Below, one piece after another: positions 1-62,718 of a DNA stretch of 64,000 nt. Position 1 is the first letter of the stretch, and every line of letters begins with the position of its first letter. Under the pieces are notes generated by a model. That model ran no database searches and was not told the DNA's origin. It was given only the letters and a program-made list of their open reading frames with translations. Made by a program: the position numbers and the translations under genes. The DNA is from Sediminitomix flava (lineage in GTDB: Bacteria > Bacteroidota > Bacteroidia > Cytophagales > Flammeovirgaceae): NCBI RefSeq assembly GCF_003149185.1, contig NZ_QGDO01000010.1, forward strand, positions 62,001 through 126,000, read 5' to 3'.

Positions 1-512
1 AAAACACTAGTAGATCAAAATATTAGTCCTATATGCACATGATATAGAACGTGCGATAGCAAATGAGAAACAAACCTTATAGTTAATCTTTATATTCCTG
101 GAGATAAAGAAAAGGAAGATTAACTTAAAAAAAATCATACATTTATTATAGATGAAAACTTCACATTTAGCTATTGATTTGTTTTACTAATCAATAATTA
201 CTCATAAATATAGAGCATCCACAAAAATAGTATCAGGCACTGTATTTAATTGATGATGTATACCCCACTTTATCTTTTTCAAGAGATGAAAATATTTGTG
301 ACTCAATATATTATTCTATAAACTATATTCATTATGGACTATCCATTGCTACCTCCTTCTAATTAAATCATGCCATTTCTATTCTGATCATACTCATTTG
401 AATTGAAGTATGTGAATATTCTTTATAAGTTGGTATCATTTTGATACCAAAGAATAGAACAATAGCAACACATTATATTATCAGAAAAAGTCATTCATGT
501 ATTTATAATTAC
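1..512. other. gene-free AT-rich left flank
   Basis: No convincing coding region is visible on either strand; all frames are broken by frequent stops. The only structured element seen is the parS-like palindrome at 430-450. The stretch ends at the left terminal inverted repeat of the IS3-family element. Confidence 0.7.
430..450. promoter_or_regulatory. parS-like palindrome, copy 1
   Basis: Perfect inverted repeat TTGGTATCA - TTT - TGATACCAA, with 9-bp arms. It is the leftmost of five copies of the core GGTATCA-N3-TGATACC, all found between 430 and 3890 and upstream of parAB. The partition-site role is inferred from this clustering beside parAB; the palindrome itself is directly visible. Confidence 0.6.
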
Positions 513-573
513 ACTGGAGTGTCTACTTTTAGGGTTACAGATTTAAACTATCTTTTTCTTAACTTCTATTGTT

Positions 574-845
574 ATGAAAAGATACGATGCCGCATTTAAA
601 GAGATGGTTCTAGACTTACTTGGATCAGGTCAGTCGATAAGCCAATTGGCTAAAGATTATCAGAAAAGTCCAATTACGTTTCGTAGTTGGCAGAAAAAGT
701 CTTTAAGTCCTGAAGGTTTATCAGGTAAGGGGATTTTAACGGCCGAACAAGACGAAATTAACGCTTAAAGAAAGCCTTAAAGGATGCTGAGCTAGAACGC
801 AATATCTTAAAAAAGGCCGTGAGCATTTTCTCCAAGAAAGACTGA
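574..845 (+). pseudogene. IS3-family transposase OrfA, frameshifted
   Basis: Starts MKRYDAAFKEMVLDLLGSGQ, the usual N-terminal helix-turn-helix of IS3 OrfA. The frame stops at 766-768 (GCT TAA). Reading resumes one base back as LKKALKDAELERNILKKAVS, which is the leucine-zipper part of OrfA, and ends with TGA at 843-845. A one-base deletion near 764-766 explains this best. The natural IS3 slippage site would lie at the OrfA/OrfB junction rather than in mid-OrfA. Confidence 0.8.
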
Positions 846-846
846 G

Positions 847-1734
847 TACATACAGTTTATTAAAAATCATAAGTGTTCTTATTCAGTTGGGAAAATGTGT
901 GATCTATTAAAGATTAGTAGAAACTCGTTTTACAAATGGGATCGAAATAGACAAGTATCCCCATCAGGTTTGCGAACAACATACCTCAAGTCAGAAATCA
1001 GAAGAATATTTGAAGATAACCTCCAAATCTAGATAGTTACAGGATTCAAAAAGAATTGAGTAAAGTTTATATAATCCTTTCTAGAAGCTATGTCGCTCGT
1101 TTAATACGAGAGATGGGATTAAGGAGTGTACTGAAAAGAAAATATGTCATTACCACTGATTCTAGGCATGATCAGCTCGTCGCAGAGAATGTATTGAATC
1201 GAAATTTCACAGAGAATAAACTCGGTAAAACATGGGTGTCAGGTATTACTTATATCCGTGTATCTGATCAGTGGGTATACTTAACAACTATGATTGATCT
1301 TACTGATCGAAAAGTGGTAAGTTATTCTTTGAGTGAAGATATGAGTACTAAAAATACAGTACTTAGAGCGTAGACTTCAGCCCTAAAAAACAGAGATATA
1401 TGTGATGATTTTCTACTCCATCCAGACCTAGGAGCACAATACAGTAGTGTCTTATTCACTTACTTCTGTATTGAACAAACATCCAAAAGCTAAACAGAGT
1501 ATGAATAGAAAAGGAAACTGTTGGGATAACTCGGTAGCTGAAAGCTTTTTTAAAAGCATCAAATATGAATACCTCTACCGTTTTAAATTTCAATCCATGA
1601 AAGAACTTAGAATAGAAGTCTCAAAGTATATTTATTGGTATAATCATAAGAGACTACATTCAACATTGGGTTACAAAACTCCTGTGGAAAGAGAAAATGA
1701 ATTAAATTTTATAAACTTGAAAAGGATAGCCTAA
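847..1734 (+). pseudogene. IS3-family transposase OrfB (DDE integrase), multiply broken
   Basis: Fragments in successive frames read as one rve-type integrase. Segment one (about 847-1031) contains the HTH_21-like part with LLKISRNSFYKW. A frameshift near 1030 leads into the frame with SYRIQKELSK and RLIREMGLRS. A TAG at 1371-1373 interrupts the frame before a HPDLGAQYSS segment (normally HSDxGxQY). A further frameshift near 1447-1460 leads into the C-terminal part NRKGNCWDNSVAESFFKSIK with the catalytic glutamate region and the terminal YNHKRLHSTLGYKTPVE motif. The catalytic core is recognisable but the gene cannot be expressed as a single protein. Confidence 0.85.
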
Positions 1735-1811
1735 AATTGTATACTTTTAGGTTGATACTCCAGTAAGCAATGTTTTCAACTATTGAACTCGATTTTAAAT
1801 TTATAATTACT

Positions 1812-1828
1812 GGTATCAAAATGATACC
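1812..1828. promoter_or_regulatory. parS-like palindrome, copy 2
   Basis: GGTATCA - AAA - TGATACC, 7-bp perfect arms. It lies 48 bp past the right end of the IS3 element, in non-coding DNA. Same core as the copies at 430, 1975, 2907 and 3871. Confidence 0.6.
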
Positions 1829-1974
1829 GATTATATAAGGGTTTCTATCAAATAGATAAAAAATATAACAATAGTTCTGGATTCATTGTGAAACCAAAAT
1901 TAGTACCATTAAATAAATGATATTGTTGATCGTCTTAATAATATAAGATTTTTTAAAAATAAAAGAGATTAAAC

Positions 1975-1993
1975 TGGTATCATAATGATACCA
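1975..1993. promoter_or_regulatory. parS-like palindrome, copy 3
   Basis: TGGTATCA - TAA - TGATACCA, 8-bp perfect arms, about 163 bp from copy 2 and 41 bp upstream of the small ORF at 2035. Confidence 0.6.
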
Positions 1994-2034
1994 AAAAAAA
2001 TTGTGAGCATATTAAAAGTATATACCGAACAGTC

Positions 2035-2157
2035 ATGAAAAAAATTATATTATTAATAATATTTCTTCCATTACTATTATTGATTATTGCAATACTATTA
2101 TTTGGTGGTATTGTATATTATGAAGACTATTATAGTAAAATATTAGCGATTATTTAA
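2035..2157 (+). CDS. possible 40-residue single-pass membrane peptide
   Basis: An ATG-initiated frame of 41 codons encodes MKKI followed by a long run of Leu/Ile and ends in a Tyr/Asp-rich tail (YYEDYY). One hydrophobic helix covers about residues 4-28. Lysines at the N-terminus fit a signal anchor. It is not recognised as a member of any family. It sits between two parS-like palindromes in otherwise non-coding, AT-rich DNA, where AT-biased composition alone can make hydrophobic frames. Expression is unproven; a small toxin-like or regulatory peptide is possible but only speculative. Confidence 0.3.
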   Translation: MKKIILLIIFLPLLLLIIAILLFGGIVYYEDYYSKILAII

Positions 2158-2374
2158 GTTTAAAAATAGTTTAATTGATAATTGTACTGCTATTAGGTAT
2201 AATAATTTTCAGTGTTTTAATATTATGAAATAAAGTCAATACCAATTATATGAATAGTTTTGCCTAATAAATTTTTATCCTATGAAGCAAGTTGTTTAAA
2301 ACTCCAATTCTAATGTAAACTAACTCACAGCCCACTGAAGTTATAGATTTATATTAGGACTGAAAGTCCTTCAC

Positions 2375-2595
2375 TTACTCCAACAAAAAGCTATAAGTAT
2401 TGCTATTATAACTATGATGATGTTCTATGTATTCAATCACCAATTCATCTATAATATTATCTGTACAGTAAAGTCCTGTTCAAAAATATCTAATCCAATT
2501 TATATTCTTTAAACTAGGGTTCTCAAGCTGAAAAACTCTTGATATTGTCATTATATCCGACTCATTAAATCGCTTCTACTTTTAATGAATTGGGT
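2375..2595 (-). pseudogene. possible IS200/REP-type transposase relic
   Basis: On the minus strand, two adjacent frames read QFIKSRSDLMSRI and then ISRVFQLENPSLKNINWIRY, a TGA where Trp is expected, then NIIDELVIEYIEHHH. The order resembles the C-terminal half of IS200/IS605 or REP-associated Y1 transposases, in which a loop like HPSLKK..YWGGxFW is followed by VIxKYIExQ. The frame carries two stops and a shift, so it would be inactive. The resemblance was judged by eye only. The rest of 2160-2906 shows nothing recognisable. Confidence 0.35.
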
Positions 2596-2906
2596 AGGTT
2601 TATATATACAAATATATATGATCTTTACTTCCTACACACCCTTTAGATTCCTTCTAACTCACATATCTGTATTTTCAATATTTCTTTATATATATCCTTT
2701 AAGAACATGGTAAAGATACTTGGTTATCCAAAATAGATGAACTGTTGACTTAGTTTTTGTTTGTTATCTTTTTCTATACTCTAGTGTTATTAAAGTAAAT
2801 TACTAGATTTTATAGCAACACTTAATTATAGTTTTTTGAACCCCTTATTAAGATCTATAAATTCTATTCTTGTATAAAAATATCCAGTTATAATTCTAAT
2901 AGAATT

Positions 2907-2927
2907 ATGGTATCAAAATGATACCAT
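2907..2927. promoter_or_regulatory. parS-like palindrome, copy 4
   Basis: ATGGTATCA - AAA - TGATACCAT, 9-bp perfect arms, in non-coding DNA between the two insertion-sequence relics. Confidence 0.6.
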
Positions 2928-3085
2928 GAGAATTGCTACTCTCAGGTAGAGTATTTTTAACTTCTAATATATGATGGTTTTATACATTTTATGTACTTGC
3001 ATTGACAATATTATAAGTAGCTAAACATTCTCAATTAATGATAATTAGTTGTTAGCTAAAAAATAATGATAAAGAATAATTATAG

Positions 3086-3680
3086 ATATCCTCCAAATCT
3101 AAGGGTATTACAGAATTTAAAAAGAAATGAATAAAATTAATATTGTCCTTTCTAGAAGCTATGTTTCATGTCAAGAGTAGTAGGATTAAGGGGTATTATA
3201 TTAAAAAAATATATCAATACCACTGATTCCAAATCTGATCAGATCATAGCAGAGAATGTATTGAATAAAATTTCACAGAGAATAGGACTTTAGATTTCTT
3301 ACTTCAGAATATCCAATAGTTGGCTTACTTAACAAAGTACTCAATCTAAATATTCTATTCTTTGAGTGTGAAAAGAATATTAAAATACATACAGTACTTA
3401 AAGCTTAGATTTTAGCTCGAAAAAATGAGGTTTTTGAGAAGATATCCTACTCTATTTATACTTATCAGTATTTCTATCATTATAAAATAAACACCCATAA
3501 AGTCAGTTATAGCATCAGTAGAAAAGGAAAGTCTTTGATTAATTAGGTTGCTGAAAGCTTTTTTAAAAACATAAAATATGAATACCTTTTTTTCAATAAA
3601 TGAAAGAACTTTGAATAGTAGTCTCAAATTATATTTATTCGTATAGTTTTAAGATATGACATTATAGATTAATCTTGACT
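3086..3680 (+). pseudogene. decayed second copy of the IS3 OrfB 3' half
   Basis: Nucleotide-level similarity to 1014-1690 is plain to the eye. Examples are CCTTTCTAGAAGCTATG at 3149 matching 1077, CAGAGAATGTATTGAAT, and GTTGCTGAAAGCTTTTTTAA matching the NSVAESFF codons. Indels and stops break every frame. No terminal repeats remain. This is an older relic of the same insertion sequence family, suggesting repeated insertion and decay in this gene-poor tract. Confidence 0.8.
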
Positions 3681-3855
3681 TTCTAGAAAATAAAAAGATT
3701 TAATAGTATTAATCTGTATTTTGTAGCTTACCACTTCCATTGACTGTGCTATTGAGTTTAATCATACAATCAAAAAAGTCATAAAATTGTAGACATAAAT
3801 AATCAAAAAAAGTAGTTCAAAGCATTATTCTATTATTCATAAAAGAAAAGTTTAG

Positions 3856-3902
3856 ATAAAACTACAGCTTGGTATCATAATGATACCAAGCTGTAGTTTT
3901 AT
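3856..3902. promoter_or_regulatory. 47-bp perfect dyad containing parS-like copy 5
   Basis: Two perfectly complementary 22-bp arms (3856-3877 and 3881-3902) flank the triplet TAA. The centre is the same GGTATCA-TAA-TGATACC core as the other four copies, and the arms continue outward with an added ACTACAGCTT sequence. The right arm ends TTTTAT and the left begins ATAAAA, so it also looks like a bidirectional terminator, but no gene ends nearby. From 3903 to 4480 no gene or other structure was seen. Confidence 0.65.
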
Positions 3903-4560: not shown

Positions 4561-5526
4561 ATGACAAATACTGATGTTATTAATTTTTTAAAGAGAAATC
4601 CGTCTCTTTCTTTATCAGGATTAGAAAAAGAAGCTTCTATTCCAAGTTCAATGTTGTCTAAAGCAATTTCTGGGAACAGAAATTTGAATGATGAGCACCT
4701 AACAAAACTTTCACCTGTATTGAAAAGATATGGCTTTCATAAATCTGATGGAGCCAAAATCATCAGTATTGTTAATAACAAAGGGGGAGTAGCAAAAACA
4801 ACGACTTGCTCAAACTTAGGTAGAGCATTGCACCTAGAAGGATATAAAGTTTTACTATGTGACCTAGATCAACAAGGAAACCTATCACAAACTTATGATA
4901 TAAATGACCCTGAAGAAGAGTTATATCAATCACTCTCTTTCAAAATTGATGCTCCTATTCAAAACTGTATCATGGAAATATTTCCTGGTTTTGACATCTG
5001 CCCTTCAACTATTGCACTTGGTCAAGCTGCTCTTGATCTACAAAACAATCAACTAAAAGGGTATAAAAGATTATCTAAAGTGCTTGATCAGGTCAGAAAT
5101 GAATATGATTTCATTCTTATTGACTGTCCTCCTTCATTAGATATCATGACAGGTACTGCTCTAGTTGCTTCTGATTCCGTTGTTTTACCTGTACAACCAG
5201 AAGAACATGCAGTAAAAGGATTGAAGAATGTATTTAACCTTATCGATCAAATGAAAGATTTGAACGATCACATTCAAATTGAAGGTATTCTATTTACGAT
5301 GGTAACATCGAATACTACATTACATAAAAGTTATATGGAGGCAATCAAAGAAGGTATGCCTCATGTTCGCGTATTTGATACATTAATCCGTAGAAGTATA
5401 TCTATACCAGAAGCTACAGCTACACATCAAAGTATCTTTGATTACGATAAATCTTCAAATGGGGCTAAAGATTATAAGAATATTACCTTAGAACTCATCG
5501 GAGAAACTAAACTAAAGAAAAAATAA
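4561..5526 (+). CDS. parA: ParA-type partition ATPase
   Basis: 321 residues. Residues 1-58 form a helix-turn-helix-like region (SLSGLEKEASIPSSMLSKAI). The MinD/ParA ATPase follows, with the deviant Walker A motif KGGVAKTT at residues 74-81, CDLDQQGN just after residue 100, and IDCPP as Walker A-prime/B. The N-terminal DNA-binding extension is the mark of large plasmid-type (type Ia) ParA proteins, which move replicon copies and also autoregulate the operon. parB follows after 6 bp, so the two are co-transcribed. It acts on the nucleoid surface in the cytoplasm. Family assignment is firm; the autorepressor role is inference from the N-terminus and the dyad upstream. Confidence 0.95.
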   Translation: MTNTDVINFLKRNPSLSLSGLEKEASIPSSMLSKAISGNRNLNDEHLTKLSPVLKRYGFHKSDGAKIISIVNNKGGVAKTTTCSNLGRALHLEGYKVLLCDLDQQGNLSQTYDINDPEEELYQSLSFKIDAPIQNCIMEIFPGFDICPSTIALGQAALDLQNNQLKGYKRLSKVLDQVRNEYDFILIDCPPSLDIMTGTALVASDSVVLPVQPEEHAVKGLKNVFNLIDQMKDLNDHIQIEGILFTMVTSNTTLHKSYMEAIKEGMPHVRVFDTLIRRSISIPEATATHQSIFDYDKSSNGAKDYKNITLELIGETKLKKK

Positions 5527-5532
5527 TTTATC

Positions 5533-6438
5533 ATGGCCAAGAAGAAATTCAATACCAAAACATTAGTTTCTGAGGTAGGCTCTGCCGCTTCACAAATTAC
5601 AAGTACACCTAATTTACAAACAAGCTCTATTCCTACAGGGGAAAGAATGGAAAAAGCTGTAAGAGAAAACATTCATATTCTAAAAGAACTTGAATACTTT
5701 ATCAGAAAGCTGAATGAGTCAGAATACAATTTACTTAAAGAAGATATTCGACTAAATGGGTGTAAAGAACCTATTAAATTATGGAAACGTGATGATGACT
5801 TTATCATTGTAGATGGGCATCACCGTTATCAGATTTGTCAAGAGTTAAATATCCCTTTTCAAACGCAGAGTCTCGACTTCGCATCTATCGAAGAAGTCAA
5901 GATCTATATGGCAAAACTCCAATTAGGTCGTAGAAACTTAACACCACAAGAGTCGAGCTACCTTAGAGGAATGCAATATGCCTTTGCCAAAATGAATAGA
6001 GATGATAGTGCAAAAGGAGGAAGGACTAGAGAAATTCTTTCAAAGGAATATGGTGTAAGTGAAGCTACGATCATGCGTGATCATAAGCTATACCTTGGTA
6101 TTGAGAAACTTTCTCAAATCTCAGAGGAAGAAAAACAAAATTATCTATCAGGTGATTCATTCCTTCTAAAAAAGCATATAGAGTATATTGCGATTCAAGA
6201 TGACTTAAATTTAGAAGTTTTATTGACTTTCTTATCGCAAGGAGGTACGCTTGAAGATTATATCAAACAACTAGATAAAAAAGAGCAACAAACTAAACAG
6301 CCTAAAAAAGCTGATAAAGTAGATTTTCTTGAAAGCTTTGAAAGTAAGTTTGAAAAGGAATTAAAATCTGCAGATCCTAGTAGAAAAGCTGAAATGAAAT
6401 TTTGGTTAGAATCTCTTCTTAATAAATATTACAGTTAA
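5533..6438 (+). CDS. parB: ParB-type centromere-binding protein
   Basis: 301 residues. The ParB/Spo0J N-terminal fold is seen from about residue 50, with DGHHRYQ as the box II equivalent (in place of the chromosomal GERRxR) and LQLGRRNLTPQE as the box III equivalent. A helix-turn-helix follows (GGRTREILSKEYGVSEATIM). The C-terminal tail is highly charged and Lys/Glu-rich, as expected of the dimerisation region. It should bind the centromere and stimulate ParA. The best target in the window is the GGTATCA-N3-TGATACC cluster at 430-3890; this link is inference. The DGHHR variant leaves it open whether it binds CTP like chromosomal ParB. Confidence 0.92.
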   Translation: MAKKKFNTKTLVSEVGSAASQITSTPNLQTSSIPTGERMEKAVRENIHILKELEYFIRKLNESEYNLLKEDIRLNGCKEPIKLWKRDDDFIIVDGHHRYQICQELNIPFQTQSLDFASIEEVKIYMAKLQLGRRNLTPQESSYLRGMQYAFAKMNRDDSAKGGRTREILSKEYGVSEATIMRDHKLYLGIEKLSQISEEEKQNYLSGDSFLLKKHIEYIAIQDDLNLEVLLTFLSQGGTLEDYIKQLDKKEQQTKQPKKADKVDFLESFESKFEKELKSADPSRKAEMKFWLESLLNKYYS

Positions 6439-6471
6439 GAAAGCTTTCTCTTTCATCTTTTTGTCATCAAT

Positions 6472-6510
6472 AAAAGCCCGTATTACTTGAGTAATACGGG
6501 CTTTTTGATT
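6472..6510. terminator. bidirectional intrinsic terminator after parAB
   Basis: Perfect 15-bp stem AAAAGCCCGTATTAC (6472-6486) / GTAATACGGGCTTTT (6491-6505) with the 4-base loop TTGA and a T tract on the right and A tract on the left. It separates parAB from the convergent membrane-protein gene and can serve both strands. Confidence 0.9.
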
Positions 6511-6534
6511 GACCAATTAAGTCTAAACAATAAA

Positions 6535-7610
6535 TGTACCTTTTCAGATGAAAATTTAAGATGCTTTCATCTCTTTGGGTGCATTAAGTTCCTCATATCT
6601 ATTTATAGCTGCTTTTACAGTTTGAACATTACACTTAAAAGTCTTCATCAGGTACTTATAATCTCTAATTCCTAGCTGAATTGCTGCTTCTAAACCTGAT
6701 TGTGGGGTATCTAAAGTGATTTCATGATTTGATTCTTCATCTTTTTGGGCGTATATACTTTCATCAATCATCTTTTTAGGTGTGATTGGTGGAGAAGGTA
6801 AACTAAAGTCAATTGAATCATCCTTTTCGGTGCTTTTAAAAATTAATGGTTGTTCATTATCTACAACATTTGTATTTGAATCATTCGTTTCCAATTGTTG
6901 TAATTCTTGATCTTCTTTTAGGACTTTATAGTCAAACCACACTAAAAACCAACCACTTAATATGATTAATAAGTCAAAAATTGCAGCAATTATAAAAAAT
7001 ACCCATGATTTTTCTTTCTGCAGAATTTCATAATCTCTATTATTATGCACCCAAATAGATGAAAGTTTTTCCTTTTCAATTTTAAATTCATCTTCTAACT
7101 CAAAAATGCGTTGATCAAATAAAGCATAAGTACTTGCTGCTTTGGGATTGAGTGCATACTTAGAATTGCCTAAATACACCTTATTATTTTCATAAAAATC
7201 CGACTTACTTTCCCTCAAATTCTCTAAATCATTAGAGTGCTTGTTTTCCAATTTCAAAAGTTCTTCCTCATAAGAACCTTTAATTTCTTTAGACTTATCA
7301 TTGAAACTATAAACAATTTCTTTAGCACCATTTGCAGACATCCAAATACTACCAGATGTAAAACAAAGTGTTAGGAGTATGAAAAATAGTGAGGATGTGT
7401 GAGAATTATAGTAGTTTTCGCTGCTTATTTGTAAAAATCGAGCTTTAGCATACTCCCAACCACAAAGTATTAAAACGGAAATAGGAATGGCCAAATATTG
7501 TGGAATTCCTTCAAACACAAAGTTTAGTAGAAAATAGATCGATGTAATAATTGAGATAACAGGAAGAGTTCTCTTCGAAATTTTCGAAAGCACCCAAAAA
7601 GATGAAAACC
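6535..7610. repeat. scattered iterons, seven copies, six inside a coding sequence
   Basis: Seven matches to the rep-flanking iteron (T/A)(G/A)CACC-N6-GATGA, in both orientations: plus strand at 6535-6554, 7046-7064 and 7590-7610; minus strand at 6736-6753, 6767-6785 and 6816-6837. The copy at 6581-6599 region (6566-6584) is also minus-orientated on the plus-strand reading. All but the first lie in the minus-strand membrane-protein gene, where they are translated as parts of TPKKMI, STEKDD, AQKDEE, APKEMK, SSIWVH and SSFWVL. They look like the same repeat family as 7842-8225, so coding DNA and origin repeats overlap here. Confidence 0.7.
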
Positions 7611-7728
7611 TTTGACTAAATGGCTTCCATTCAAATCGTTTATTTGCTTGCCTAACGTATTTTTTATATTGCTCTTCTGATCTTAGTTTTTCTAAATGCT
7701 CAATCATCATGTCTATATTAAAGTACAT
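6556..7728 (-). CDS. four-TM coiled-coil membrane protein of unknown function
   Basis: 390 residues, not recognised as a named family. Likely membrane helices are near residues 55-72 (SIITSIYFLLNFVF), 77-93, 112-130 (SSLFFILLTLCFTSGSIW) and 245-266 (FFIIAAIFDLLIILSGWF). Between helices three and four is a long Glu/Lys-rich coiled-coil segment (about 140-240). The C-terminal tail is polar, acidic and Pro/Ser-rich. The last 45 residues (LGIRDYKYLMKTFKCNVQTV and onward) look like a small helix-turn-helix. It lies between parAB and rep, convergent with parB and divergent from rep. Six iteron copies sit within its codons. A membrane anchor for the origin or a replicon-maintenance role is possible from context but unproven. 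Confidence 0.75.
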   Translation of the reverse strand: MYFNIDMMIEHLEKLRSEEQYKKYVRQANKRFEWKPFSQRFSSFWVLSKISKRTLPVISIITSIYFLLNFVFEGIPQYLAIPISVLILCGWEYAKARFLQISSENYYNSHTSSLFFILLTLCFTSGSIWMSANGAKEIVYSFNDKSKEIKGSYEEELLKLENKHSNDLENLRESKSDFYENNKVYLGNSKYALNPKAASTYALFDQRIFELEDEFKIEKEKLSSIWVHNNRDYEILQKEKSWVFFIIAAIFDLLIILSGWFLVWFDYKVLKEDQELQQLETNDSNTNVVDNEQPLIFKSTEKDDSIDFSLPSPPITPKKMIDESIYAQKDEESNHEITLDTPQSGLEAAIQLGIRDYKYLMKTFKCNVQTVKAAINRYEELNAPKEMKAS

Positions 7729-7841
7729 TAAAAATTAATTGGTCTAATATTTTATACAAATATACCTATATTTGTCAATAATAAAAGACTATATTTAAAT
7801 AATGTCTAAATATATCGACATTTGATTTATTGTATTAAAAT

Positions 7842-8225
7842 GCATCTTTTTGGGTGCTTAAAATAGTATTACACCTATTTAGATGAATAGGATATAAATC
7901 TTTTATGTATATGTATTGGGTGAAATAATTAAATAGATATAATAAAAAAATATATTCTTCATCCTTAAAGCTTTATTAGAGAATTTATATTATTTATTTA
8001 ATTTATTATTTATGTGAGCCGTAACTATCTGTAAAATAAAGTGATATAAAAAGTTATACACCTATACAGATGAAGACAAACACCTAAATAGATAATCAAA
8101 TACACCTGTAAGGATGAAATAATACACTAAAAAGGTTGAATCAAATGCACCTATTAGGATGAATTTATATATATTGCACCTGTAAGGATGAATAAAATAT
8201 CTTAAATACACCTTTTTAGATGTCT
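7842..8225. repeat. rep-proximal iteron array (candidate replication origin)
   Basis: Nine copies of the repeat (T/A)(G/A)CACC-N6-GATGAA. One is inverted (7842-7860). Eight are direct: 7870-7890, 8057-8075, 8079-8097, 8100-8120, 8122-8142, 8145-8165, 8174-8193 and 8207-8225. The last seven are spaced about 20-30 bp apart and run to 38 bp before the rep start codon. Examples are TGCACCTATTAGGATGAA and TGCACCTGTAAGGATGAA. Iterons of this kind are the binding sites of Rep_3 initiators and both start and limit replication. That function is known for the family and inferred here. Confidence 0.85.
7891..8056. other. very AT-rich segment within the origin, candidate unwinding element
   Basis: Between the second and third iterons lies a run of almost pure A/T with few G/C bases, for example around 7925-7960 and 7980-8015. 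Such segments next to iterons are typical DNA-unwinding elements. There is no gene. No convincing perfect DnaA box was found; TTATACACC at 8055 differs from the usual box by one base but coincides with an iteron. Confidence 0.45.
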
Positions 8226-8262
8226 AATGCATAGGTGAAAAGGGAATGAGGGGGAATGTATT

Positions 8263-9450
8263 ATGCCAGAGGCTGATTTTTTAAAGCTGCCGCTTATGAA
8301 ATTTGTAAAGAGAAAGAAGCTTGTTCGTAAGTCGAATAAACTTATAAATGCGAAGGAGAATACACCTTTAACGGCATTGGAGAGGAAATTAATGCTCTAC
8401 TCTGTTTCAGAGGTCAATGATGAAGGTAAAGTCAATTTTAGAATACAAGACCTATACGGAACGAGTAAGCTAAATACGAGCCATTACAGAAATGTTAGAA
8501 AGGCAGTTGAGAACTTGCTAAATGTTAAGGTTGTGGTGGAAGAGGGTGATGTTTCTGACGAAGACTGGAGAATCAAAGGAATGAATGTTTTTGATGTGAT
8601 TGAGGCTAGTCGTAAAGGAGGAAGCATTTCAGCAAGGTTCACACAATCTATGATTCCGCACATCACTAACCTTAAAAGAAATTATACAACATACCTCTAT
8701 GAGGCTGTATCGCCGTTTCGTTCAGACTTTAGCATCCGTATATATGAATTGTTAGTACAAGGTGTAGATCATTATTCTAAGAGAGAATTTGAACTTGAGG
8801 AGCTAAAAAGCAAGATTGGTATTAGCCAAATTAAGACTTACACTAATTTCAATCAGATACGTACTAAAGTTTTGGATAAAGCTTGTCATGAGATAACAGA
8901 AAAGTCAGATATAGATGTGACATGGGATATTTCTGGTAAAAAGGGGAGGAGAGTAAGTCATATAACCTTCTTTATGCAGCGTAAAACGGCCTCTGTTGAA
9001 CGATCTACCTCTGATAGTACAAAAGTAGAGGTGAAAGTTGATAAACAGCTAGAGCAGCAAATGAATACGATGAAGGGCTTAGGTCTATCTGAAGATCAGA
9101 TAAGATTAGTTCTTCAAATGAAACAATCTGAGGAAAAACTTAAAGATGTCGAGCCTGAGGTGGTAGAATCTACGACTTTATTCAATGAACAAGAAGGTGA
9201 GCCATTTAAGTTAGAACAAACAAGTATTCATTTAGATATAGTAGTAGAAGAAAGAAAATCTAGGTTGAGAGAGCGTCTGATTGGATATAAAGTAGCTCCT
9301 GAATTGGTTGAAAAAGTTGTTGAACATACGCAAGCGAGCAAAGAATCAGGGATTTGGAAGCATGTAACTTATCTTCAAAAGAATCCGAATGCTGTAGATA
9401 ATCCTGCCGGATATTTAACTTCTATCTTTAGAAATAATTATGGATTGTAG
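8263..9450 (+). CDS. rep: Rep_3-family replication initiator
   Basis: 395 residues. Residues about 12-245 match the RepB/Rep_3 initiator layout: VRKSNKLINAKENTPLTALE, then two winged-helix domains including FRSDFSIRIYELLVQ and YTNFNQIRTKVLDKACHEI, ending at VSHITFFMQRK. The C-terminal third is a Glu/Lys-rich extension of unknown role with a final region around YLQKNPNAVDNPAGYLTSI, a motif often seen at the end of plasmid initiators. An unusual strong purine run GAGGGGG (8248-8254) lies 8 bases before the ATG and supports this start. The iterons on both sides are its expected binding sites. The 33-bp shorter start at MKFVKRKK is possible. Confidence 0.92.
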   Translation: MPEADFLKLPLMKFVKRKKLVRKSNKLINAKENTPLTALERKLMLYSVSEVNDEGKVNFRIQDLYGTSKLNTSHYRNVRKAVENLLNVKVVVEEGDVSDEDWRIKGMNVFDVIEASRKGGSISARFTQSMIPHITNLKRNYTTYLYEAVSPFRSDFSIRIYELLVQGVDHYSKREFELEELKSKIGISQIKTYTNFNQIRTKVLDKACHEITEKSDIDVTWDISGKKGRRVSHITFFMQRKTASVERSTSDSTKVEVKVDKQLEQQMNTMKGLGLSEDQIRLVLQMKQSEEKLKDVEPEVVESTTLFNEQEGEPFKLEQTSIHLDIVVEERKSRLRERLIGYKVAPELVEKVVEHTQASKESGIWKHVTYLQKNPNAVDNPAGYLTSIFRNNYGL

Positions 9451-9452
9451 AT

Positions 9453-9520
9453 TTTTCATCTTTTTAGGTGCATTAGATTGTACCGAAAAAGATGAAAACT
9501 ACACCTATTAGGATGAATAT
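9453..9520. repeat. iteron cluster downstream of rep
   Basis: Three copies of the same repeat begin 3 bp after the rep stop codon: inverted at 9453-9473 (complement TGCACCTAAAAAGATGAA), direct at 9479-9499 (TGTACCGAAAAAGATGAA) and direct at 9499-9519 (TACACCTATTAGGATGAA). A second cluster past rep is common for handcuffing or incompatibility control; the role is inferred. Confidence 0.75.
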
Positions 9521-61632: not shown

Positions 61633-62718
61633 ATGAAAAAGATTTTATCAATTATAACGCTTGGATTGGCACTAAGTGCTTGTTACCCTGGGAACCAAGA
61701 AAATGAATTTCCTGATTTCGATCAGCAGAATGTTTATTTCCCAATACAATCGCCTGTGAGAACACTAATCTTAGGTGAGGATTATTACGATAACTCTTTG
61801 GATCAGGAATACCGTTTTAATGTAGGTGTTGCCATCGGTGGCTTGAGAGAAAATACTAAAGACTGGACTGCAGATTTTCAAGTTGAAAATAGTTTGGTTG
61901 ACAATCTTATTTTCGCAGAACCAGAAGATGATGCGAGTGACTATACCATGTTTGAGGCTTTACCTGCTTCATACTATGAGTTGGGTGTCACAGATCAAGT
62001 AACAATTCCTGCAGGAAGTTTTGTTGGTCTTATTCCAGTTCAGTTGACGGATGCTTTCTTTGAAGATCCAAAAGCAGTAGAAGGACGTTATGTGTTACCT
62101 CTAAAATTAACAGGTACATCGGCAGATTCGGTGTTGAGTGGTTTGCCTGCATCTGGGGTTGAAAATCCTGATTTGCGTTTGGATTCAGACTGGACAGTTT
62201 CTCCTAAAAACTACACACTTTTTGCAGTGAAATATATTAATGAATTGCATGGTGAATATTTGCGTAGAGGAAAGACAGTAGTAACTGATGAAGCGACAGG
62301 CAATGAAATTAGAACAGATGTATACAGAGCTGATTATGTGGTAGAAGATGCCCTTGTTTCAGCATCTACTTCTGGTAGAAGAACAATTGTTCTGAACAGT
62401 ATGGGTAAGTATGTTGATGCGACTCATCAGCTTGCTGTCGAGTTTCCTTCAAGTGATGCTGAAGGTCAAATGAGCTTATCATTAAGTTCTGTTGAAGGTT
62501 CAACACCTGTTGAAGCTGTAGGTACAGCAAATGTATGGGTAAACGATGGCGATCAGTGGGGAGGAACACCTGATAATCCTACAAAAAGAGATGTTATCTA
62601 TTTGAATTACACTTTTATGGATAACGACGGATATATCAATGAAGTATTCGATACATTAGTTTATCGTAATAATGGTATTGACTACGAAGAGTTCACTATC
62701 AGTCTGATGGAAGAGTAA
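61633..62718 (+). CDS. SusE-like surface lipoprotein (DUF1735-type)
   Basis: 361 residues from MKKILSIITLGLALSACYPG, a clear lipobox with Cys17; a 9-residue extension reaching back over the SusD stop is discarded. Residues about 30-160 resemble DUF1735 domains found with SusD proteins. The C-terminal half is a beta domain that may bind sugar. Last gene of the SusCD-SusCD operon, so probably a surface glycan-binding accessory. The exact ligand is unknown. Confidence 0.8.
   Translation: MKKILSIITLGLALSACYPGNQENEFPDFDQQNVYFPIQSPVRTLILGEDYYDNSLDQEYRFNVGVAIGGLRENTKDWTADFQVENSLVDNLIFAEPEDDASDYTMFEALPASYYELGVTDQVTIPAGSFVGLIPVQLTDAFFEDPKAVEGRYVLPLKLTGTSADSVLSGLPASGVENPDLRLDSDWTVSPKNYTLFAVKYINELHGEYLRRGKTVVTDEATGNEIRTDVYRADYVVEDALVSASTSGRRTIVLNSMGKYVDATHQLAVEFPSSDAEGQMSLSLSSVEGSTPVEAVGTANVWVNDGDQWGGTPDNPTKRDVIYLNYTFMDNDGYINEVFDTLVYRNNGIDYEEFTISLMEE

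Follow-up and report, generated by a model that had tools for sequence, protein, structure and literature searches.

Putative initiator-binding iterons within a membrane-protein gene beside a Rep3 replication locus in Bacteroidota

Iterons are usually pictured as intergenic origin DNA. In a 64-kb window of the Sediminitomix flava genome (the whole stretch analyzed here, positions 62001–126000 of the 167-kb contig C10, NZ_QGDO01000010.1, in a 6.6-Mb genome of 39 contigs designated G000), a 17-bp iteron with the consensus TRCACC-N6-GATGA surrounds the gene for a Rep3-family replication initiator (Rep) at window positions 6535–9516, and six of its nineteen copies lie within the neighboring gene for a 390-aa membrane protein. 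Our reading is that these six are true iterons, i.e., putative binding sites for the neighboring Rep, that they originated by base substitution, and that they are maintained by selection at the DNA level and take part in copy control. We place the probability of this joint reading at roughly 60%, and infer both Rep binding and the effect on copy number from the sequence.

Results

Nineteen iterons surround rep and six lie within a coding sequence

At up to one mismatch, WRCACCNNNNNNGATGA matched 21 times in the 64 kb, with 18 of the 21 matches falling within 6535–9516, compared to an average of 2.95 and a largest value of 8 in shuffled sequence. The nineteenth copy is degenerate (8123–8139, TACACTAAAAAGGTTGA, 2 mismatches). 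These results reproduce both the number of iterons in the original prediction, which had been made from the letters of this DNA, and their placement: one between parB and the membrane-protein gene, six within that gene (6556–7728), nine before rep (8123 included), and three after it. Four of the in-gene copies are exact, and those at 6737 and 6768 each carry one mismatch. They are read in both orientations, occupying two sense frames and one antisense frame, and the short peptides predicted at them were confirmed. Scores in the following list are from the position weight matrix (PWM) described below, in bits.

6535..6551, plus strand: iteron between parB and the membrane-protein gene; PWM 20.0
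6556..7728, minus strand: membrane protein, 390 aa, host of six iterons; hydropathy peaks near 54–88, 114–132, and 245–263
6567..6583, minus strand: in-gene iteron, read NAPKEMK; PWM 18.5
6737..6753, minus strand: in-gene iteron, read YAQKDE; PWM 16.9
6768..6784, minus strand: in-gene iteron, read ITPKKMI; PWM 19.4
6818..6834, minus strand: in-gene iteron, read STEKDD; PWM 20.7
7046..7062, plus strand: in-gene iteron, antisense to the gene, read SSIWVH; PWM 21.8
7589..7605, plus strand: in-gene iteron, antisense to the gene, read SSFWVL; PWM 20.8
7842..7858, minus strand: iteron upstream of the membrane-protein gene; PWM 18.5
7870..7886, plus strand: iteron upstream of the membrane-protein gene; PWM 23.7
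8057..8223, plus strand: iteron array with copies at 8057, 8079, 8101, 8123 (degenerate), 8146, 8175, and 8207; probable initiation array
9456..9516: three iterons directly after rep, at 9456 (minus), 9479 (plus), and 9500 (plus); PWM 25.2, 20.0, and 24.8

The copies at 8057–8223 are direct repeats at helical spacing beside rep, with steps of 22, 22, 22, 23, 29, and 32, and this array probably serves initiation. The other 12 of the 19 sites lie outside it and are presumed to be initiator sites as well.

The in-gene copies resemble the intergenic iterons more closely than chance would allow

The 6.6-Mb genome contains 22 exact matches to the pattern, and half of these (11) are in the 3-kb region. 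At the genome rate with this region left out, 0.065 matches would be expected in a gene of this length, and the probability of six or more is about 1e-10. The PWM was trained solely on 12 intergenic iterons, with the in-gene six absent from the training set. Under this matrix, the in-gene sites scored 16.9, 18.5, 19.4, 20.7, 20.8, and 21.8 bits, and the best non-iteron position reached 14.5 bits in the window (in parA) and 14.4 bits in the rest of the contig. One outcome that the original prediction had named as its refutation, a motif equally common across unrelated genes, did not occur. In 2,000 synonymous-codon shuffles of the 390-codon gene that preserved the protein and its codon counts, sites of at least 15 bits averaged 0.67 with a maximum of 5, compared to the 6 observed. 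Chance was rejected based on the genome-wide pattern counts, the PWM background, and the codon permutation.

Core identity among the in-gene sites is 0.82, while flank identity is 0.28 compared to 0.29 expected, indicating that the sites were not copied as longer blocks. The insertion of longer copied blocks was rejected on these grounds, together with the lack of an insertion in genome G016 (see below) at six sites tested against orthologues.

The sites coincide with poorly conserved positions of the membrane protein

The membrane protein had no confident match in Pfam or NCBIfam, and no helix-turn-helix (HTH) match was detected in the window protein itself. Its family is present in 16 of 97 relatives' genomes, its own included. 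Among 395 genomes sampled from the class, it was matched only in its own, and a search of a plasmid collection returned no match. Relatives of the gene are found near rep or parA/parB at five loci (L036, L037, L044, L057, and L060), and others adjoin primase-like genes or tyrosine integrases. The protein looks like a maintenance protein of mobile replicons. The family often carries an 'IGF' stretch and an HTH-like tail; the C-terminal tails of some homologues match HTH profiles weakly, below curated cut-offs (L055: HTH_7, 3.7e-4). One member, L138:8024–8890, was assigned to the family by resemblance alone.

The window protein was aligned with six homologues, and the 38 columns within iteron sites were compared with the 352 others. 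The frequency of the top residue was 0.30 in in-site columns compared to 0.48 elsewhere, and gaps were more frequent in the sites (0.28 compared to 0.05). The window residue was present in any of the six homologues in 32% of in-site columns compared to 59% elsewhere. The other refuting outcome named in the original prediction, homologues that retain these amino acids but use codons destroying the motif, therefore did not occur either. Sites 7589, 7046, and 6818 align with the homologues without gaps, and 6768 is gapped in one. At 6737, four of the six homologues are fully gapped, and 6567 lies at the C-terminal end, beyond where most homologues stop. Given these gapped or C-terminal regions, insertion is conceivable for 6737 and 6567.

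A second replicon with a different iteron carries sites in eight open reading frames

A similar arrangement recurs independently on G016:C7, a 316-kb contig of a relative with its own Rep, ParAB, and a different iteron. All 18 exact copies of TNWCTNAAATGNTACNW in 7.4 Mb fall within C7:230–22866; when one mismatch is allowed, the hits (76 + 78) are only somewhat more numerous than those of the reversed control (63 + 70). With a matrix built from 15 array and intergenic sites at 5365–5982 and a threshold of at least 16 bits, 45 sites were detected, all within C7:230–23016. The remaining 293 kb of the contig held no site of at least 16 bits, and Markov sequence of equal length yielded 2, 1, and 0. 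Seventeen of the 45 sites are inside eight open reading frames (ORFs), with four in rep, three each in the genes for exonuclease I (ExoI) and a 599-aa protein, two each in those for a histidine kinase and a LytTR response regulator, and one each in those for a DprA-like protein, an acetyltransferase, and an outer-membrane protein. In five of these ORFs, the observed count was reached by no more than 1 of 300 codon permutations. The membrane-protein-like gene of this contig (8024–8890) has no site of at least 14 bits.

Orthologues of ExoI, the LytTR regulator, and DprA were collected from eight congeners; the best matches were 54–62% identical and on other contigs. For the LytTR regulator, which has many paralogues, the top match was taken as the orthologue, and in L185, a DprA orthologue, the match is interrupted by a stop codon. 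None of the 24 orthologous coding sequences contains a site of at least 16 bits. G016 has no insertion at the six sites tested; the one length difference there is a single additional residue in four congeners at an ExoI site. These results imply that the sites in these three genes were built by substitution in existing genes. Invariant columns among the orthologues were less frequent within sites (8/39) than elsewhere (387/1,029), and at one ExoI site, a glycine present in all eight orthologues is a lysine in G016. ExoI provides a direct test case, as its gene has three iterons on G016:C7 but lacks them in all eight congeners.

The nearest relative has the same iteron outside the homologous gene

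The closest locus to that of the window is on G003:C3 (L036), with ParA 82%, ParB 62%, and Rep 60–62% identical and the same iteron. Its membrane-protein homologue is 35% identical and has one 23.3-bit iteron upstream (L036:6596). The window's iteron was not found inside the homologous genes of G003:C3 or G003:C4. The latter contig has its own iteron, to which its homologous gene bears a partial, sub-threshold resemblance. Genome G003 has Rep matches on seven contigs, C1 to C7 (that on C5 weak), each with its own iteron sequence, although the C1 and C7 iterons look related; these contigs represent a natural set for studying iteron specificity.

In-ORF iterons are found at other Rep3 loci in low numbers

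Rep was searched for in 18 chosen genomes (15 of the 18 membrane-protein-family genomes and three others), and matches in 14 of them gave 34 loci. The iteron of each locus was derived from DNA near rep outside called ORFs, and ORFs were counted at 120 codons or more. Loci L134 and L135 are based on weak Rep matches (1.5e-4 and 4.6e-4). This strict survey supersedes an earlier, looser one of 24 loci; L109 was replaced by L138, and L136 was dropped, as L044 covers the same rep. Rep matches at G003:C7:47545 and on G011:C283, C267, and C86 were left out.

The strict survey detected 552 sites, 39 of them in ORFs of at least 120 codons. Rebuilding the matrices from the sites lying outside ORFs gave 40 in-ORF sites across the 34 loci, compared to 1 with reversed and 1.3 with column-shuffled matrices; this count of 40 retains four sites of L044 within a 174-codon tandem-repeat ORF that is possibly not a true gene. 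Excluding the window and G016:C7, 23 in-ORF sites remained in 16 of 32 loci, against 1 and 1.3 with the control matrices, and some of these ORFs may not be genes. Many in-ORF iterons were found only in the window and G016:C7 among the surveyed loci. The claim that iterons in a gene would be unusual therefore calls for qualification, as at least one in-ORF iteron is present in half of the other Rep3 loci.

Five large contigs (G014:C2, G008:C12, G012:C2, G002:C2, and G016:C3) share a common iteron near TATGTATAGATNTACCG, with 18–23 copies outside ORFs and 1–2 in flanking ORFs each. At L044 (G003:C1), the stretch at 2282–3429 between rep and parB contains twelve 42-nt repeats, mostly in 102–103-bp steps, with iteron-like copies on one strand among them, and is perhaps a combined partition and iteron array. 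Searching the plasmid collection with the window Rep returned one match, in Flammeovirga sp. MY04. A scan of contigs with Rep among named relatives gave seven loci, all distant (25–29%), which were not used; near records were possibly omitted from that scan.

The surrounding genes form a plasmid maintenance block

The region at 4561–9450 is a plasmid maintenance block encoding ParA, a ParB-like protein, the 390-aa membrane protein (minus strand), and the Rep3 initiator. Its further features are as follows.

431..3888, no strand assigned: five palindromes, TGGTATCA-N3-TGATACC(A), at 431, 1811, 1975, 2908, and 3870; possible parS centromere sites, distinct from the iterons
4561..5526, plus strand: ParA-type partition ATPase, 321 aa; Pfam AAA_31 4.5e-49, NCBIfam ParA_partition 7.6e-35 (below its cut-off)
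5533..6438, plus strand: ParB-like partner of ParA, 301 aa, by position; 62% identity to the gene after parA in L036
7900..8049, no strand assigned: AT-rich stretch beside the array (16–19% GC), possible unwinding region
8263..9450, plus strand: Rep3-family replication initiator, 395 aa; Pfam Rep3_N 1.1e-26, Rep3_C 4.7e-14

A profile of Rep and two relatives matched the pi protein (2nra, 1.6e-15) and RepE (1rep, 1.4e-11) in the Protein Data Bank, and the WH1 and WH2 domains of the Rep3/RepE/pi family are present; this family membership fits iteron binding. Pfam and NCBIfam searches with the protein at 5533..6438 returned no match, and we take its stretch VDGHHRYQICQEL to be ParB-like. The sequence at 7700–7849 is as AT-rich as the possible unwinding region.

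The palindrome TGGTATCA-N3-TGATACCA is present in five copies before ParAB, and the portion of contig C10 retrieved beyond the window contains none; the same search found seven in L036 (7951–9321), which has a related ParAB. It is a possible parS. The iteron, unlike parS, is not palindromic, and its candidacy as parS was set aside since the separate palindrome fits that role. The 2.8-kb region before parA lacks long ORFs; translations at 1056–1734 read as transposase-like ORFs, and 3168–3293 is a short decayed stretch resembling one of them.

Discussion

The original prediction offered two readings of the in-gene copies, either that coding DNA doubles as origin DNA or that iterons have spread into the gene. 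The latter is supported by a matrix that was not trained on these copies, by the excess over codon permutation, by their absence from the same-iteron homologue, and by the less conserved, more gapped protein positions at the sites. We propose that the in-gene iterons arose separately in a gene that was already there, largely through base substitutions where the protein tolerates change, and that the usefulness of the DNA site has preserved them. Initiation would probably take place at the 8057–8223 array, and the scattered copies, in the gene, between genes, and after rep, would most likely be negative control sites that titrate Rep. Scattered sites bound by Rep might also pair with the array (handcuffing), and extra Rep sites near the origin could thereby lower or steady copy number. 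Coding DNA serving as origin DNA, the former reading, is plausible; the dispersal of the in-gene copies and their mixed orientation, however, make them look like control sites and not like a further array for initiation. The same motif is found beside the 60–62% identical Rep of G003:C3.

Several observations weigh against this interpretation. At up to one mismatch, the pattern matches 382 times in the whole genome compared to 264 for the reversed pattern, indicating that the loose pattern has a raised background elsewhere in the genome as well. In the strict survey, G003:C3 has 0 iterons inside ORFs and 11 outside, with none in the homologous gene, implying that the in-gene copies are not shared with the nearest relative and are not obligatory. 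On G016:C7, the counts of the three single-site ORFs were reached by 21, 30, and 44 of 300 permutations and are not significant alone; the highest orthologue score, in one DprA, is 14.9 bits; and residues absent from all orthologues are in modest excess within sites (12/39 compared to 163/1,011 elsewhere, Fisher p = 0.026). The DnaA-box consensus TTWTNCACA has no exact match at 7700–8300, and the window contains 10 compared to 10.5 expected. Moreover, no iteron was found inside an annotated gene in either phage P1 or the Flammeovirga sp. MY04 plasmid.

Other explanations can be considered for the in-gene sites. It is possible, albeit unlikely, that they control the host gene, with Rep on sites within and ahead of the membrane-protein gene blocking or tuning transcription and tying the protein to the level of Rep. 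An iteron lies within about 160 nt upstream of the gene start both in the window (7842 and 7870) and on G003:C3 (L036:6596, 23.3 bits), and initiators repress promoters in known iteron systems (PMC6090056). However, one or two promoter sites would suffice for such control, making six sites in the gene body in both orientations unnecessary, and on G016:C7 the sites are in unrelated genes such as those for ExoI and the LytTR regulator, with none of at least 14 bits in its own membrane-protein-like gene. We regard as quite improbable the idea that another protein binds the sites, either ParB or, by way of an HTH-like tail, the membrane protein itself, which would tether the origin region to the membrane. 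The weak HTH matches in some homologue tails and the company that the membrane-protein gene keeps with rep/parAB on several plasmids would fit this idea, but the window protein has no HTH match, the array is directly upstream of rep with 22-bp steps, and separate parS-like palindromes are common to the window and the relative with related ParAB.

Neutral spread, through recombination or a mutational bias near the origin, would leave the sites functionless within genes. Some sites are indeed not significant alone, and the nearest relative lacks in-gene sites, but the flanks are unshared and no insertion was found at the six orthologue-tested sites. Furthermore, the 17-bp matches, found on either strand and in several reading frames, are close to the consensus and are accompanied by amino-acid changes, and a neutral process would not explain the joint retention of motif and open frame; we consider this explanation very doubtful. 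A chance or peptide-driven resemblance in an AT-rich gene has a negligible likelihood. While the six peptides do make the motif reachable, and permuted genes average 0.67 sites, none of the 2,000 permutations reached six, the genome rate gives a probability of about 1e-10, and the homologues mostly lack the peptides.

Returning to the reading that the in-gene copies are Rep sites acting in copy control, a broader model can be drawn, to which we give a little less than even odds. Under this model, origin-proximal genes, including ones for DNA repair, on the Rep3 megaplasmids and second replicons found in this Bacteroidota family would be co-opted in situ to form a dispersed array of initiator sites, with base changes building iterons at some cost to the protein within up to 23 kb around rep, and coding DNA would become a dosage-control element that sets copy number. 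If genes near origins often evolve iterons in place, their coding sequences bear a second, DNA-level constraint tied to replication control. This would affect how selection on such genes is read, the mutual exclusion of plasmids, and the reshaping of genes moved onto a megaplasmid.

Comparison with known systems

Flammeovirga second chromosomes and plasmids have the same kind of Rep/ParAB replicon (PMC8653839), and the word iteron is absent from the main text of that article. The Rep of the MY04 plasmid is 25.5% identical to that of the window, and all 16 sites found on this plasmid are outside annotated genes, in contrast with the window, though its gene table may be incomplete. In phage P1, as here, rep lies between a phased array (incC) and extra control iterons (incA), with parAB nearby according to the annotation, and incA is annotated as an incompatibility determinant built of RepA iterons. 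All 14 annotated RepA iterons of P1 are outside coding sequence, with the last incA copy sharing one base with the end of repA, whereas six are within a gene here. The repABC replicons also have origin DNA in coding sequence, with the origin in repC (PMC6090056), but they are without iterons, and the origin is in the initiator gene itself rather than in neighboring genes.

A precedent is RctB of Vibrio cholerae chromosome II, whose sites are known outside the minimal origin as well, with some located in coding sequence and some acting negatively on replication (PMC3937223, PMC11711613, PMC6090056). Chromosome II has a titration locus about 40 kb from ori2, and six newly found sites in a stretch at about this distance from the origin lowered the copy number of an oriII plasmid (PMC3937223). 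ChIP-seq of RctB identified eight regions on Chr1 and six on Chr2, RctB iterons require Dam methylation, and mutation of prominent sites had minimal or weak effects, as had inactivation of those within VC0643 and VC1643 with the protein unchanged (PMC11711613). Coding DNA that contains initiator sites is thus already known. In contrast with those of RctB, the sites described here are dense, proximal to the origin, and in Rep3 replicons. Our literature search, for which most subscription papers were out of reach, returned no report of iterons inside neighboring genes of Rep3 plasmids, and we take the density of the sites, their spread close to the origin, and the evidence that they originated in place to be what is new here.

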